Below, in pieces: positions 34,545 through 41,510 of a stretch of 64,000 bases of DNA. The number at the start of each line of letters is the position of its first letter. The first letter of the stretch is position 1. The notes beneath the pieces are model-generated. The model had not been told where the DNA came from and did not search any database. It saw nothing but the letters and a program-made list of their open reading frames with translations. Position numbers and translations under genes: made by a program. The DNA comes from Armatimonadota bacterium (GTDB lineage: Bacteria; Armatimonadota; Fimbriimonadia; Fimbriimonadales; Fimbriimonadaceae), in assembly GCA_027451905.1 (NCBI GenBank), contig DAIDHV010000007.1, positions 62,001 through 126,000 on the forward strand, given 5' to 3'.

Positions 34545-35978
34545 ATGATTGAAGAGAGTCAACCAGATTCAGAAAAAATTTCCAAAACAGTTTGGATTGT
34601 TCTCGCTTTCATCCTTCTTACCCACTTTGCACTTGCCAACTTTTATGCGTCTGTAACCCCTTATAGACAATCAGGAATCGACCTATCCATGAGAGGCGCC
34701 AAAATAGCCGATATCGGTGCTCCTGATGAGCGAGCTCATGCAAACTATGTTCAGTGGATTTTGGATGGCAAAGGTTGGCCAGTTCTTGACCTTGCCAAAA
34801 TGAAGTCTGATCCAGTTTTTAGGGCCGAAGAGTATGAAAGTCACCAACCTCCCCTTTACTATCTGATCGAAGCAGCAACCGCCAAAGTCTCAGGAGTTGA
34901 CCAGGTCAGACAACAAAGGGCAAAGCTGCCTCTACGATTTCCAAATACAATTTTTGGTGCCGCAACCGTGGCCGGGGTTTTCTTTTTGGCAGTTTGGGCG
35001 TTTTCCGACCCCGTCATTGGCCTTCTTGCCGCCCTAGTGCCGGCTTTACTGCCGATGAGCACTGCTCTCAGCGGTGCCATTAGCAATGATCCCCTTTTAA
35101 TCTGCCTATCCACTTGGGCGCTGTCGGTTATGGTTCACTGCCTAAAGAATGGATGGACCAACCGCAAGATTCTTGTGCTTGTCTTGTTGATTTCAGCCGC
35201 GTGTTGGACCAAGACGACAGGTCTACTCCTGATTCCAACAGTTTTGGTTGCTGCTTTTTTACCAACTCAAACCAAAATCAAGCCCTATCAGCTAGGGGCT
35301 GCCTGCCTGGGTTTTCTTGTGTTAACATCAGCTCTTTGGATTCACAACCAAATTCATTACGGTGATCCTTTTGCTGCTTCTGCCTTTAACAATGCCTTTT
35401 CTGACACTCCTCAGCACTCGATGATAAGTCAAGTTATCGCTACCCAAGGCGGCAATCCAACCATTGACTATTGGACAAAATGGGTTGGCTGGTGGACTTT
35501 CCGTTCATTCATCGGTGTGTTTGGGTACATGGACATCTGGCTCAATCGCTCAGGTTCTCCCTACCCAAGCCACAGCGATCCCAATTGGCTCTACTCTATT
35601 TGTCTTCTTGTTGGGCTTATTTTGGCTTTTGGCTGGTCTCAATATGTCAAGTCCGCTAAAGGAAAACAAGAAAATTCTGTCCACATTTCTTTGATCACTT
35701 TCTTTTTTTTAGTGACGGGCTCTTTCTTGGCGTTCAATAACCACTATTTTCAAGCTCAAGGTAGGTACTTGTATCCTGCGATCGGGCCGATATCGGTAGG
35801 TCTTGCCCTTGGGGCGTTTCAATTCTTCAGACACAGAAAATGGACGGCAGTGATTCTGCTTGCCATAGGCTTGACGTACCTGCAGTTTGATGCAGTGACG
35901 ACGGTTCCCCACCAGTTTTCCAAGCGGATTGTAATGACTGCCCCCCCTCAATCCGTCTACACTATGAAAACAACGTGA
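34545..35978 (+). CDS. Membrane glycosyltransferase, GT39/ArnT-like (or DUF2142)
   Basis: A 477-residue protein with about 11 hydrophobic helices. The first extracytoplasmic loop holds DERAHANYVQWILDG and the EYESHQPPLYYLIEA motif, typical of GT-C enzymes that use polyprenyl-phosphate sugars, with the acidic DE as probable catalytic residues. It would transfer a sugar on the periplasmic side. The stop overlaps the sigma-factor start (GTGA), an unusual pairing that may be only coincident. Substrate unknown. Confidence 0.75.
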   Translation: MIEESQPDSEKISKTVWIVLAFILLTHFALANFYASVTPYRQSGIDLSMRGAKIADIGAPDERAHANYVQWILDGKGWPVLDLAKMKSDPVFRAEEYESHQPPLYYLIEAATAKVSGVDQVRQQRAKLPLRFPNTIFGAATVAGVFFLAVWAFSDPVIGLLAALVPALLPMSTALSGAISNDPLLICLSTWALSVMVHCLKNGWTNRKILVLVLLISAACWTKTTGLLLIPTVLVAAFLPTQTKIKPYQLGAACLGFLVLTSALWIHNQIHYGDPFAASAFNNAFSDTPQHSMISQVIATQGGNPTIDYWTKWVGWWTFRSFIGVFGYMDIWLNRSGSPYPSHSDPNWLYSICLLVGLILAFGWSQYVKSAKGKQENSVHISLITFFFLVTGSFLAFNNHYFQAQGRYLYPAIGPISVGLALGAFQFFRHRKWTAVILLAIGLTYLQFDAVTTVPHQFSKRIVMTAPPQSVYTMKTT

Positions 35979-36559
35979 TAACTTTGAAATCAGCCATTGC
36001 TGAGGAATCAATATCGTGTGAACGATTTGATTCAGATTCAATTTTAGTGGACCGCACATTGGCAGGCGATCCTCTGGCTTTTGAATCGTTATTTCAACTC
36101 TATCATGGAAAAGTTTTTGCAATTGCCCATAGCGTGCTTTTAGACAAGGATGAGGCGGAAGACGCAGTTCAAGAGATTTTTGCCCTTGTCTTTAGAAACC
36201 TATCAAAATTTGACCGTCGATCTAAATTCAGCACTTGGCTTTTTCGGCTAGCGGTGAATCGATCCATTCAAGAATCTAGAAAGAGCAAAAGAAGAAGGGT
36301 TTCGCTTGATCTTGACGTGATCTTAGAGCAGCCAGCCCACGTTCCAGAAGTCTCACCAATTTGCGGCCAAGTTGAAGAGGCCCTCGCAAAAATCCCGCCA
36401 GCCGATCGCGCCATCCTTGCCATGTTTTACTGGGAAGAGTTTTCACTCAGTGAAATTGCCCAGAGCCTAGGTTGCCGAGAAAACGCTGCGAAAACAAGAC
36501 TTTACCGGGCAAGGGAAAGATTCCGGTCTTGCTACATTGAGGAGGGTGAAGATGTCTAA
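35975..36559 (+). CDS. ECF-type RNA polymerase sigma factor
   Basis: A 194-residue sigma-70 relative with only regions 2 and 4. Region 2 spans about residues 28-100 (DPLAFESLFQLYHGKVF, DEAEDAVQEIFALVF, FSTWLFRLAVNRSIQE). Region 4 spans about 130-188 (KIPPADRAILAMFYWEEFSLSEIA, ENAAKTRLYRARERF). It directs polymerase to a small regulon, usually in response to an envelope signal. The GTG start overlaps the preceding stop. The next gene starts inside its 3' end and encodes a single-pass membrane protein that is probably its anti-sigma partner. Confidence 0.93.
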   Translation: MITLKSAIAEESISCERFDSDSILVDRTLAGDPLAFESLFQLYHGKVFAIAHSVLLDKDEAEDAVQEIFALVFRNLSKFDRRSKFSTWLFRLAVNRSIQESRKSKRRRVSLDLDVILEQPAHVPEVSPICGQVEEALAKIPPADRAILAMFYWEEFSLSEIAQSLGCRENAAKTRLYRARERFRSCYIEEGEDV

Positions 36560-37451
36560 AATTCCTGCTGATGTAGATGAACTGATGTGGACGATTGCCG
36601 AAAGCAATAATTCTCAGTCCATTCGAGAGTTTGGCAGCCGATTTCCCGAGCTGCGGCCCGAGCTTCTTAAGCGGATCAAAGTCCTTGCCGAGTTCAAGGG
36701 TGCCAAATCAAAAGTGTCTCTTGCAGAACCAAGCCATTTCCACCGTACCAAACTAAAGGCCAATGCCAAAGGAATTTCTTGGAGATTAGCGGCTGCCACC
36801 GGTGCTCTCACCGTGTTGGTCATTGCAGGCTTAGCTATGGCAGCATTGAATTTGAACCACGCTCCTTCCAATAAAGAAGTCGCCTCTGCTATTCAAAATC
36901 CTGGACACCCTTCTCCGGAAACTAACCAGCAGGCAAATGTAAGTCCAAATGTTGTTTATCGGTCAAAGCTGCCTCAAGCCAGCCCTACCCCCAGTCAACC
37001 GCAGCCAAGCAGTGTCCCCAACGATTCTTCACACCTTTCTCAGCCGCTTCTGTTGCCTAGCGGAGCCGTTGGACCCGAAGGCACCGAGTACCAAGTTTCA
37101 GCAAGGCATAAACCAATTACGGTTGATATCCAAAATGCCAAACTTTCCGATGCTCTCGCTTTGCTTGCGGCACAAGCAAAATTGCGCATTCAGGTGGCTC
37201 CCGGATTAAAAGATCAAATGGTTTCGCTTAGCTATCAGCAAGAATCGCCAAGAGACATCTTGAAAGATCTCGGCGCTAAATACGGATTTACTCCCTTTTA
37301 CCAAGGCAAGGGTTTGTATATCATCATCCCTGCCAGAGCAAATCCTAGTCACGGGAGAGCAACCCACACCTCAAATTCAGGCTCAAATTTCCAAAAGGAA
37401 CCAGCTAGCTTGCCAACCATTGGGCAGAATGGAACAAACGGCGGCAATTAA
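36552..37451 (+). CDS. Single-pass membrane protein with secretin/TonB short N-terminal-type domain, putative anti-sigma factor
   Basis: About 299 residues. A cytoplasmic part (1-76) of helical, charged character is followed by one membrane helix (about 77-100, WRLAAATGALTVLVIAGLAMAAL), a Pro/Ser/Gln-rich linker (105-180), and a periplasmic domain (about 185-257). That domain, ITVDIQNAKLSDALALLAAQAKLRI and PRDILKDLGAKYGFTPFYQG, matches the STN fold found at the N-terminus of secretins and TonB-dependent transducers. ATG 36552 has a perfect AGGAGG 6 nt upstream inside the sigma gene, so the pair is coupled. An anti-sigma role is inferred from position; no zinc-binding HxxxCxxC motif is present. 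Confidence 0.7.
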   Translation: MSKIPADVDELMWTIAESNNSQSIREFGSRFPELRPELLKRIKVLAEFKGAKSKVSLAEPSHFHRTKLKANAKGISWRLAAATGALTVLVIAGLAMAALNLNHAPSNKEVASAIQNPGHPSPETNQQANVSPNVVYRSKLPQASPTPSQPQPSSVPNDSSHLSQPLLLPSGAVGPEGTEYQVSARHKPITVDIQNAKLSDALALLAAQAKLRIQVAPGLKDQMVSLSYQQESPRDILKDLGAKYGFTPFYQGKGLYIIIPARANPSHGRATHTSNSGSNFQKEPASLPTIGQNGTNGGN

Positions 37452-37501: not shown

Positions 37502-38230
37502 ATGCCATCTCCTACCCGCAGCACTGACCTGATCGAAATGTTCGCCGAGCGAGCCATTTATTTCCTATTTGGAGGAGTGGTCTGTTTAATTGTGTGGTTT
37601 ATTTTATGGCACTGGCGCGGATCCGGATCGTACGATGCCCTCAGCCATATTTTCTTACTGTTTGGAGTGATTCTTGTCGTTTCGAGTCTATGGGGGATGA
37701 TGCAAATCAGAACAGTCAAGTTTCATCACGTCAAATGCCCTTTCTGCAACACCGTGAACGACCTGACCGACGCCCCAACCGAGGATTTTCACTGCGTTAA
37801 GTGCAGCCGGATGATTCCGATCGAAAACGGTGAGGTCATGAGTGTCTCTCAGGTTCAGTGCGGTTACTGCCAAACCCTCAACTATTACAGTGCAAAAACT
37901 GAGATTTTAATTTGTGAAGAGTGTGACCACGAAATCCCGATTTCCCAAGATGAAGAAGGGCGGCCCACAAAATCAATTCCTAAAGCCTTCAAAATAACCG
38001 ACGACGACGCTCTTTACAGCTTGGTTTTGACCGAACCAGGCAAAAACTCAGAAGAAATGATTGCAACCTTGCAGCAGATGCTTGCACTGAACCGAAATCA
38101 AGTCAAAGACATCCTAGAAGGATTGCCAGCAACCCTCCTTACTGGCATAAATCGAAGGAAGGCAGAGATGCTTCAGGCTCAACTCTCCATCCACGGTGCA
38201 ACCGCAGAAATTTCTGCAATGGAATTCTAG
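37502..38230 (+). CDS. Membrane zinc-ribbon protein with C-terminal ribosomal-L7/L12-like domain
   Basis: A 242-residue protein. Two membrane helices (about 18-37 and 45-66) are followed by two CxxC-x(n)-CxxC ribbons (CPFC/CVKC at about 79-101; CGYC/CEEC at about 120-141). The C-terminal domain (about 169-240) resembles that of L7/L12: a strand YSLVLTEPGKN, then helices with VKDILEGLPATLL and RRKAEMLQAQLSIHGATAEI, in the same order as in L12 (VKDLVE...KEEAEEIKKKLEEAGA). A few bacterial zinc-ribbon proteins carry such a tail; its role is unknown. It is transcribed on its own from a good promoter. Confidence 0.75.
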   Translation: MPSPTRSTDLIEMFAERAIYFLFGGVVCLIVWFILWHWRGSGSYDALSHIFLLFGVILVVSSLWGMMQIRTVKFHHVKCPFCNTVNDLTDAPTEDFHCVKCSRMIPIENGEVMSVSQVQCGYCQTLNYYSAKTEILICEECDHEIPISQDEEGRPTKSIPKAFKITDDDALYSLVLTEPGKNSEEMIATLQQMLALNRNQVKDILEGLPATLLTGINRRKAEMLQAQLSIHGATAEISAMEF

Positions 38231-38351
38231 TTAGAAAATGGACTCCTGAGGTATTGTTAATGGGCAATACTGGGCACGAGTTCTCTTTTGCCAGGCCTCA
38301 CCCTGATCCCAAAACAATGACGTTACAACGAGATTGGTGGCTATAACTAGG

Positions 38352-41300
38352 ATGACAAAACAACTAAAGCTGACACTTCTTTTCTTGCTAGGGCTTCTGA
38401 TGCCCCTTTCCGCTAGAGCCGATGACGGGAATGTTTATATTCCGCTAAGTTCCGGCGACAAAGAGTATTTGTACATTGCCCTTGGCTGCGCGGTGATCTC
38501 AATCATTACCGGCCTGCTCCTCCGAGCTTCTGTTCTGAAACTGCCTGCAGGTTCAGAAGCCATGCAAAGCGTTGGCAAAGCCATCCGAGAGGGCGCACTT
38601 GCCTATCTGAAAACGCAAGTGCGCACGATGGCTCTTTTTGTTCTTGCCATTGCCATCAGTCTGTTCTTCCTCTTTAAAAATACTTATGGCTTAACCGATG
38701 CCGTCAAAGTAGCGGTTTGCTTCATTTTTGGGGTGACTTGTTCTTATGCGGCTGGCTTTACCGGAATGTTGGTTGCGGTTGATGGCAATATGAGAACTGC
38801 CAATGCAGCTCTCACCTCCTACCGTCGGTCTCTAACGACTGCATTTCGATCGGGTGCCGTCACTGGGTTCATGACTGTGGGGCTTGGTCTTTTCGGAGCC
38901 TGCGTTATCTTTTTGTTTGCCGGCCAATCAGCAATGCGGCTACTGGTCGGCTTTGGATTTGGAAGTTCCTTAGCCGCTCTCTTTATGAGGGTGGGAGGTG
39001 GAATCTTTACCAAGGCGGCCGACGTCGGCGCGGACTTGGTTGGCAAGGTCGAAGCCGGAATCCCGGAAGACGATCCTAGGAACCCAGCTGTTATCGCAGA
39101 TAACGTTGGAGATAATGTTGGTGACTGCGCGGGCATGGCTGCCGACGTTTTTGAATCCTATTCGGTCATGCTGGTTGCTTCTATTGTTCTTGGAGCCGCC
39201 ACTGCAACCGCGTTCGATAGCCAAGTTTGGATCAAATTCATCCTCTTCGCTTTTCTTGTTTGTGGCATCGGCATCTTAGCTTCAATCATCGGCGTCTTCA
39301 TGGTTCGGGGTTCGGACAACCTCGATTCTGATCCAATTGTTAGCATCAGAAAAGGGTTCTATGCAGCAGCAGTCGTCGCTATTTTTGGAATTCTCATTGG
39401 TGCATTCTTGCTTTTTGGAGGCAATAAAGGCATCGAAACAAGCCGTTTGGTTTCCATTGACCAGATGCAGCAAACAGAATTCAAAACGATTCTCGCATTC
39501 AGAAGGGCCCTCGCCAAGAAAGAGAAGGTTCCAACCTACGATATTCAGGCCCAAGAATTGGCAAACCTGCCTGGCATCAATAAGCTTGGGTACTCAAAAG
39601 ATGAAATCCAAGCTTCCTTAAATAGTGCCCTTACCTTTGATGACGAATCTGCACCGAAGCCAATCAATCTTAGTAACTACAGACCAGTAGATTTTAACGA
39701 CTCTTCAAACCCAATCCTGCATTACACGGTTTCTATCCAGGCGGTCAACCCCAACTCAAAGCCGACCATAGAGTCTTTTAGGGACGCTTACTCACAAGAT
39801 ACCGGTGGTTTGGGTCGATACAAGCCTTTGCCAATCAATGTTTACAAACTTGCGGTGATCCCCAAGCCAGCTCCTGGTCAAAAACCAGTAGCCAAGGTGT
39901 TCACAGCCGGTCCGGTTCAAGACTCGATCATGAAGGCGTTGATCAGCCAGGCGGAAACAACTGGCCAAGCAACCATCCATATCGAAGAGACTTACCCATG
40001 CACGTTTTACTACAATCCGGCTAACGACAAGATTGCCATTGGAATCGATGGCCCTTTTGAGCCGACCACCCTCGCCAAGCAAGCGATTGGATATTTCAAG
40101 GTCAAGCCAGAAGTTCTCCAAGAGATTTCGCAAGACATGACTGCCCTTGCCAATAAAAAGCAGCCGCCTCAGTTTGCAGTTGACTTTGCCCAAATTCAAC
40201 ACAAGACATTGCCTTTTTGGCTGATTTGCCTGCCGGTGCTCTTTGGCATTTTCCTCGCCTTCGGGATCGAAAAGCTAACTGACTATTACGTGTCGACAAC
40301 CAAGAAGCCAGTTCAAGAAGTTGCCGGTGTCTCAAGCGCAGGGGCGGCGCCAATGATCATCCAAGGCTTTAGCTATGCGATGGAATCCAGCGTGTTCATG
40401 GTCCTCTCTGTGGTTATTGCTCTGTTACTGCCGCTTTGGATATTTAGTCCCGCTGAATTTGGAACCTACGTTCTAAGCTTCTATGGCATTGCTTTAGTTG
40501 GGCTCGGACTGCTCACCACAACCGGATTCATTTTGGCGATGGACACCTTTGGACCGATATCCGATAATGCCCAAGGCGTCTTTGAGATGTCAAAGGCGGG
40601 TGAAGGAAATCCCAATGGCCACAAAGCTGTTCAGCGGCTGGATGCGGCTGGAAACACGACCAAGGCCCTAACCAAGGGGTTTGCCATCTGCACTGCCGTC
40701 ATTGCCGCAGTCGCCCTCTTCCACTCATACTTAGAGGGTGCAAACCTTAGCGCTATCGGTTTGCGGCTAGATTATCCCGAAATCTTTCTTGGGGTTCTCA
40801 TCGGCGGCGCGGCGCCCTATTTGTTCTCTGCATTTTCAATCAACGCAGTTGGCAGATCTGCTTTTCGGCTGATTCAAGAAGTTAGGCGGCAATTCCATAG
40901 CGATCCCGGCATTATGAAGGGAACATCTAAGCCTAACTATGCGGCTTGTGTCAGCATTGTCACTGCCGCCGCCCAGAGAGAGCTGCTTGGCCCCGGCATT
41001 TTAGCGATATTCTTACCAATTGCAGTTGGATTTGGGTTTTCGATCGGAAAGCCAGCCACTGAAATTGCGGGAAATTATTACAATCTGGCTGGTGCAGAGG
41101 CTTTAGGTGGATTTCTAGCTGGTGCGATCCTTAGCGGTCAGCTCATGGCGGTGCTGCTAGCCAATTCAGGCGGAATCTGGGACAATTCCAAAAAGCTTAT
41201 CGAAGATGGAATGTTTGGCGGTAAAGGAACCGAAGCCCATAAGGCAAGCGTGATTTGCGATACCGTTGGTGATCCGTTCAAAGATACGGCGGGGCCTGCC

Positions 41301-41510
41301 CTCAACCCTCTTATCAAGGTTATGAACTTGGTAAGCCTTTTGATGGCGCCCACCATTATCTTGCCCTTAGGAAACATCACTCTATCTATCATCACCTTGG
41401 TTTGTGTTGCGGCCCTGACCTTTGCTCTTGTGTTCTCAAAGAAAGGGTCACTCTCTGATGACTTAAATAAAGAAAGCCATGCTCAGTATGATCCAGCCGT
41501 AACCGAATGA
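38352..41510 (+). CDS. hppA: Membrane-bound proton-pumping pyrophosphatase, K+-insensitive, with large inserted domain
   Basis: Hydrolyses pyrophosphate to pump protons. Substrate motifs are exact: DVGADLVGKVEAG (about residue 224), the ADNVGDNVGDCAGM block, GPISDNAQGVFEMS and DTVGDPFKDTAGPALNP. GNTTKALTK (Lys771) has the Lys of potassium-independent enzymes, where potassium-dependent ones have Ala. At about 1052 aa it is 300 longer than usual: residues about 356-616 are a soluble beta-rich insertion between helices 7 and 8, on the outer side by topology. A signal-peptide-like N-terminus (LPLSARADDG) is also extra. ATG 38352 is preferred; TATAAC lies 4 nt before it. GTG 38334 is the alternative. 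Confidence 0.93.
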   Translation: MTKQLKLTLLFLLGLLMPLSARADDGNVYIPLSSGDKEYLYIALGCAVISIITGLLLRASVLKLPAGSEAMQSVGKAIREGALAYLKTQVRTMALFVLAIAISLFFLFKNTYGLTDAVKVAVCFIFGVTCSYAAGFTGMLVAVDGNMRTANAALTSYRRSLTTAFRSGAVTGFMTVGLGLFGACVIFLFAGQSAMRLLVGFGFGSSLAALFMRVGGGIFTKAADVGADLVGKVEAGIPEDDPRNPAVIADNVGDNVGDCAGMAADVFESYSVMLVASIVLGAATATAFDSQVWIKFILFAFLVCGIGILASIIGVFMVRGSDNLDSDPIVSIRKGFYAAAVVAIFGILIGAFLLFGGNKGIETSRLVSIDQMQQTEFKTILAFRRALAKKEKVPTYDIQAQELANLPGINKLGYSKDEIQASLNSALTFDDESAPKPINLSNYRPVDFNDSSNPILHYTVSIQAVNPNSKPTIESFRDAYSQDTGGLGRYKPLPINVYKLAVIPKPAPGQKPVAKVFTAGPVQDSIMKALISQAETTGQATIHIEETYPCTFYYNPANDKIAIGIDGPFEPTTLAKQAIGYFKVKPEVLQEISQDMTALANKKQPPQFAVDFAQIQHKTLPFWLICLPVLFGIFLAFGIEKLTDYYVSTTKKPVQEVAGVSSAGAAPMIIQGFSYAMESSVFMVLSVVIALLLPLWIFSPAEFGTYVLSFYGIALVGLGLLTTTGFILAMDTFGPISDNAQGVFEMSKAGEGNPNGHKAVQRLDAAGNTTKALTKGFAICTAVIAAVALFHSYLEGANLSAIGLRLDYPEIFLGVLIGGAAPYLFSAFSINAVGRSAFRLIQEVRRQFHSDPGIMKGTSKPNYAACVSIVTAAAQRELLGPGILAIFLPIAVGFGFSIGKPATEIAGNYYNLAGAEALGGFLAGAILSGQLMAVLLANSGGIWDNSKKLIEDGMFGGKGTEAHKASVICDTVGDPFKDTAGPALNPLIKVMNLVSLLMAPTIILPLGNITLSIITLVCVAALTFALVFSKKGSLSDDLNKESHAQYDPAVTE

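Follow-up and report, generated by a model that had tools for sequence, protein, structure and literature searches.

An ECF sigma factor gene of Fimbriimonadales is coupled to a gene for a predicted membrane-bound anti-sigma factor with a C-terminal STN domain

Results and discussion

Organization of the sigma factor locus

The DNA analyzed in this study is a 64,000-nt stretch (the window) of a genome of the family Fimbriimonadaceae, phylum Armatimonadota. It contains an ECF sigma factor gene followed immediately by a gene for a single-pass membrane protein, hereafter the partner, and both lie between two conserved genes (Table 1).

Table 1. Features of the sigma factor locus (positions in the window)
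Feature	Position	Strand	Basis or remark
Upstream neighbour, conserved: DUF2142/PMT-type membrane glycosyltransferase	34545..35978	+	Pfam, neighbour comparison
Predicted autoregulatory ECF promoter, TGTAATG-N17-CGTCTAC	35930..35960	+	14 nt before sigma start codon
ECF sigma factor gene	35975..36559	+	GTG start, 194 aa; Pfam and ortholog group scores
Shine-Dalgarno AGGAGG of partner gene	36540..36545	+	Within sigma gene
Partner gene: single-pass membrane protein with an STN at its C-terminus, predicted to be an anti-sigma factor	36552..37451	+	ATG start, 299 aa
Residues 6-50, cytoplasmic bundle of three helices, putative anti-sigma domain without zinc	36567..36701	+	AlphaFold
Residues 77-101, transmembrane helix	36780..36854	+	AlphaFold, charge count
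Residues 102-186, periplasmic linker, disordered and rich in Pro (16%), replacing the CJM/FecR subdomain	36855..37109	+	
Residues 187-261, STN/secretin N0-like domain	37110..37334	+	
Downstream neighbour, conserved: membrane protein with zinc ribbons and L7/L12 C-terminal-like domain	37502..38230	+	

In the sigma ORF, Pfam domains Sigma70_r2 (8e-16) and Sigma70_r4_2 (1.2e-14) were matched, both above the cut-off. With sigma-70 regions 2 and 4 only, the product belongs to the ECF (group IV) sigma factors. Its GTG start overlaps the stop codon of the upstream DUF2142 gene (GTGA), and its 3′ end overlaps the partner gene by 8 bp (ATGTCTAA, 36552-36559). The ATG of the partner gene lies 6 nt after a perfect AGGAGG, and the pattern AGGAGG-N4-9-ATG was found just once per strand across the whole 64 kb. 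This overlap and ribosome-binding site bore out the initial annotation, in which the two genes were described as a co-translated pair of an ECF sigma factor and an anti-sigma-like protein.

The downstream gene starts 50 nt after the partner gene and is probably in the same operon. Its product unites zinc ribbons with a membrane part at the N-terminus and a domain resembling the C-terminal one of ribosomal protein L7/L12 (PF00542, 2.9e-6), which is an unusual combination. Further downstream (38334-41510) is a gene for an H+-pyrophosphatase of 1058 aa, in which a long insertion divides the match to the 645-position Pfam model into two stretches; the examined relatives have long versions of this enzyme too.

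Architecture of the partner protein

An AlphaFold model of the partner, built with 60 relatives, displayed confident cytoplasmic helices at residues 6-18, 21-30, and 32-50, and residues W13, E17, F27, P32, and R41 of this bundle are conserved. Five K/R residues precede the transmembrane helix and one follows it. An N-in single-pass topology of this kind, together with gene coupling to an ECF sigma factor, is among the features of membrane-bound anti-sigma factors. The boundaries previously proposed for the cytoplasmic part (1-76) and the STN domain (185-257) were accurate.

For the C-terminal domain, the Pfam STN model (PF07660) gave an E value of 0.0032 and 17.7 bits, below its cut-off of 28.4, and at E ≤ 0.1 it was matched in just 4 of 60 family members. 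NCBIfam secretin models matched the same region at 9.4e-6, and the top matches in a profile search of the PDB were the type II secretion proteins GspD/XcpQ (0.03). The domain was modelled with a pLDDT of approximately 96. Structure comparison returned the N0 domains of PilQ (E 2.7e-4) and GspD (TM 0.79) as well as the signalling domains of FpvA, FoxA, and FecA and the putative anti-sigma factor 4m0h. A periplasmic STN domain on an anti-sigma-like layout had been proposed from the letters of the sequence; the Pfam profile fell short of confirming it, and the NCBIfam secretin models, the modelled layout and the structure comparison did confirm it. The assignment of this predicted domain to the STN/secretin-N0 fold is regarded as secure.

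Compared with the secretin N0 domains of PilQ, GspD/XcpQ, and SctC, which have the same fold and were the top sequence matches, the domain of the partner differs in standing alone on an inner-membrane protein that has no secretin pore domain.

Conservation of the gene pair

Among 113 genomes of Fimbriimonadales, 87 contain the sigma ortholog, which scored 260-297 bits (234 in genome G086) as against 127 or less for other ECF sigma factors. The partner is present in 81 of 85 Fimbriimonadaceae genomes and in 6 genomes of a sister family; of the four family genomes lacking it, two are reduced (1.5 Mb) and two are incomplete. Both genes occur in 86 genomes. In one genome (G022), where the contig ends within the sigma gene, the partner occurs alone, and in another (G086) the sigma gene has a different partner. 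At every Fimbriimonadales locus with a confident partner match, the sigma gene adjoins the partner gene, and an exact 4-bp ATGA overlap was observed in 51 of 66 relatives.

The initial annotation had called for a search for the same pair in other genomes and had named two observations that would speak against it, namely conserved separation of the genes in relatives and occurrence of the partner apart from the sigma factor. With overlapping genes in most relatives, the former was not seen, and the latter was seen just once, at the contig end in G022. These comparisons show the pair to be a real, order-wide module of an ECF sigma factor and a predicted anti-sigma factor.

Evidence for an anti-sigma role

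The N-terminal bundle was compared with anti-sigma domains, and no Pfam match among the 60 members and no fold match in the PDB were found. No CxxC is present in the N-terminal 70 residues of the 66 relatives, and the zinc-binding pattern HxxxCxxC is thus absent; the partner protein in the window has no Cys at all. The anti-sigma activity is therefore argued from context.

Class I anti-sigma domains are as a rule bundles of three helices, some zinc-binding and some not; approximately 44% of them have no zinc motif (PMC7406223). The partner resembles class I anti-sigma factors (RseA, RskA, RsiW, and ChrR) in having a three-helix bundle and a flexible stretch before the transmembrane helix and in adjoining an ECF sigma gene. 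It differs from them in that no sequence or fold match to them was obtained, in lacking HxxxCxxC, and in that helix 4 is not predicted. The possibility that the bundle is a zinc-finger anti-sigma domain after ligand loss was considered; by eye, the register between the two looks right, but neither hhalign (0.22) nor HMM tests, in which the G086 domain scored below shuffles, supported it.

G086 belongs to a third family. Its sigma ortholog gene shares 4 bp with the gene for a 440-aa zf-HC2 anti-sigma factor (L306:5866-7188; PF13490, 30 bits vs a cut-off of 22.2). By analogy to this case, an anti-sigma role is the most likely one for the partner as well. The 440-aa protein consists of the zf-HC2 domain, one hydrophobic segment, a C-terminal part that is weakly STN-like (10.9 bits vs 6.2 for the best shuffle), and a terminal zinc ribbon. 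Ahead of this sigma locus lies a promoter-like pair, GTAAC-CATC.

Related loci were found in other Armatimonadota. In Chthonomonas calidirosea, several related genomes and HR16, consecutive genes encode an ECF sigma factor, a zinc-finger anti-sigma factor, and a secreted secretin-N0-like protein with two STN domains (L104, L179, L180, L181, L182, L184, and L102). The PilQ model matched the secreted protein of Chthonomonas at 1.5e-5; alignment of this protein with the partner STN by hhalign covered just 35 columns, with low probability. The same three elements, sigma factor, anti-sigma factor and STN, are thus present in both groups, the STN being on a separate secreted protein in the Chthonomonas-like and HR16 loci and on the anti-sigma factor itself in Fimbriimonadaceae. 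The G086 protein is possibly a fusion of elements that are separate in HR16.

Comparison with FecR/PupR-type systems

The location of an STN domain on an inner-membrane anti-sigma factor had been considered unusual, and this view has to be corrected. In the anti-sigma factors PupR, for which a crystal structure is available, and FoxR, the C-terminus is formed by an STN subdomain, which binds the STN of a TonB-dependent transducer (PMC7186176, PMC11637429), and the same fold is found in 4m0h. As in FecR, PupR, and FoxR (PMC7186176, PMC11637429), the ECF sigma gene in the window lies beside that of a single-pass anti-sigma factor with the STN at the extreme C-terminus. Unlike these proteins, the partner has a disordered Pro-rich linker instead of the FecR/CJM beta-solenoid, and the FecR-type anti-sigma domain, the receptor gene next door and the TonB plug domain are absent here. 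Searches of the 60 members gave no FecR/CJM family match at E ≤ 0.1 and no FecR-type N-terminal anti-sigma domain among the Pfam matches. No TonB Plug domain was detected in the genome containing the window (approximately 2% of which is missing) or in 6 of the 11 relatives tested, with E. coli, Caulobacter, and Bacteroides all matched as positive controls; no receptor gene was found beside the pair at the loci. The partner thus has the C-terminal STN subdomain of the FecR/PupR family, and its own genome shows no cognate TonB-dependent transducer.

One explanation is that the partner is a FecR/PupR-family anti-sigma factor that lost the CJM/FecR subdomain and answers a TonB-dependent transducer. 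The gene order and the C-terminal placement of the STN, as in PupR and FoxR, and the fold matches to the FpvA, FoxA, and FecA signalling domains agree with such a descent. It is largely refuted, and is considered very improbable, by the lack of FecR-family matches (0 of 60 members), of a detectable Plug domain and of an adjoining receptor gene.

The structure 4m0h (BDI_1681 of Parabacteroides distasonis, a solved putative anti-sigma factor) shares this fold in one of its domains, with an rmsd of 2.0 over approximately 74 columns. It differs from the partner in that no such anti-sigma family was found by Pfam in the 60 members (E ≤ 0.1) and that no TonB/SusC partner is present in the genome containing the window. 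What sets the present pair apart is a predicted STN anti-sigma factor with neither the FecR/CJM subdomain nor a TonB transducer, the STN location itself being already known.

Candidate contacts of the STN domain

As no TonB plug domain was detected in this genome, the STN has to have some other contact. Of the two contacts suggested in the initial annotation, a secretin is possible and a TonB-type outer-membrane receptor is very unlikely in view of the missing Plug domain. The genome containing the window (G000) has three secretin genes, one of them in a pilMNO-like operon, and about nine genes for secreted proteins of approximately 700 aa with an N-terminal STN. Secretins are located near C1:338-340 kb, C1:632 kb, and C6:164-166 kb of G000. 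The contact is plausibly a secretin or one of these nine proteins. Secretins were found also in genomes that lack the pair.

The secreted proteins of approximately 700 aa form a large paralogous, partly tandem family with no meaningful Pfam match (G000:C7:130818-132851, C1:579-587 kb, C2:21 kb, C3:116 kb, C3:298 kb, C6:177 kb, and C7:133 kb), with up to 12 or more matches per genome across Fimbriimonadales.

At least 11 relatives have a gene for such a secreted STN protein, of approximately 750 aa, immediately before the sigma gene, and the N-terminus of this family aligned with the partner STN by hhalign at 1.5e-6. In a tree of these proteins, the sigma-linked copies cluster on very long branches and do not form one clade. 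As a universal partner, this family was rejected: G009 and G020 have the pair and no detectable family member.

The lack of any STN protein universally linked to the pair agrees with the earlier one-component reading, in which the STN would be a self-contained sensor, self-associating or binding a ligand, with no second protein involved; STN domains do form oligomers (PMC11637429). Such a sensor is nevertheless improbable. The known STN anti-sigma factors act via a second STN protein, STN domains pairing with other STN domains, and the secretins and the 700-aa proteins are candidates for that role in this genome. Moreover, STN proteins adjoin related sigma/anti-sigma pairs in other Armatimonadota as well as the present pair in the relatives mentioned above.

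DotD and BfpG are small proteins with an N0-like fold. The closest structural matches of the partner STN were secretin N0, DotD, and the BfpBG complex, and a prepilin-like gene is located directly downstream in approximately 21 of 65 relatives, which is suggestive of a pilus link. Both observations would fit a partner that is mainly a structural or assembly part of a pilus or secretion machine, like DotD and BfpG, with the adjacency of the sigma gene reflecting mere co-regulation. This possibility is judged unlikely, given the strict one-to-one pairing with a single sigma ortholog group, the 4-bp overlaps, the inner-membrane topology with a conserved cytoplasmic bundle, and the zf-HC2 anti-sigma factor at the same position in G086. 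The prepilin-like neighbour is weak evidence and was downgraded as proof of a pilus link, such genes being abundant (43 in the genome containing the window). These 43 places, at which prepilin-type proteins with a FTLIELLVVIAIIAILAAILFPVF start are encoded, make up one of the larger families of this small genome.

Proposed mechanism

The reading preferred here, to which a probability of roughly 0.7 is assigned, is that the partner is a membrane-bound anti-sigma factor whose STN domain senses an STN-bearing protein of the envelope and controls release of the sigma factor and transcription of its own operon. The cytoplasmic three-helix bundle would hold the co-translated sigma factor, and the periplasmic STN, on its long flexible Pro-rich tether, would dock on the envelope protein. 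The best candidates for the latter are the N0 domain of a type IV pilus or secretion secretin and the secreted STN family of approximately 700-800 aa. A change in this STN contact would lead to release of the sigma factor, probably via regulated proteolysis, and the freed sigma factor would use the GTAAC/CGTC promoter to transcribe its own operon at the least.

A more specific version, proposed tentatively, is a TonB-free form of cell-surface signalling in which the STN inserts into the ring of N0 domains in a type IV pilus or secretion secretin, or into a secreted STN protein, so that the state of the machine sets sigma activity. The secretin-type domain of the regulator suggests that the switch senses an envelope protein of the pilus or secretion-pore type rather than the iron-uptake receptors with which similar regulators are paired in other systems. 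STN anti-sigma factors are known from TonB-transducer signalling; a version conserved across the order and present in a genome with no TonB plug implies that STN-STN contact is maybe a more general means of informing ECF sigma factors, possibly one that reports on secretins. If the reading with a secretin or secreted STN protein is true, the Armatimonadota loci would illustrate how the STN came to move between the anti-sigma factor and a secreted protein encoded by a gene of its own.

Predicted promoter and regulon

Autoregulation is expected for ECF sigma factors, and autoregulated ECF promoters usually look like the GTAAC/CGTC layout. The motif GTAAC-N16-18-CGTC was observed a few nt before the sigma start exactly in 43 of 65 relatives and with at most one mismatch in 59 of 65, the means for shuffled sequences being 0 and 0.5, respectively. 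The copy in the window has one core mismatch (GTAAT) to this family motif, GTAAC-N16..18-CGTC. Judging from the conservation of the motif, the sigma operon is apparently autoregulated. The Fimbriimonadales thereby gain a concrete ECF circuit with a predicted promoter; a literature search for Fimbriimonas and ECF sigma factors found no such work.

In a search for the regulon with GTAACC-N16..17-CGTCNAA, counts besides the sigma promoter were near those of a reversed-pattern control, and the other matches to this strict motif were mostly inside genes or single cases. The looser pattern GTAAY-N17..18-CGTCNA gave 11 matches in the genome containing the window vs 36 for the reversed control. As the strict motif revealed no clear further targets genome-wide, the sigma factor may have few targets, or the pattern may be too stringent. 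In one single case (L234; G098:C72:8787-8815), the strict sigma motif is located 6 nt before an ORF for a secreted protein of 102 aa that resembles a secretin N1 segment.
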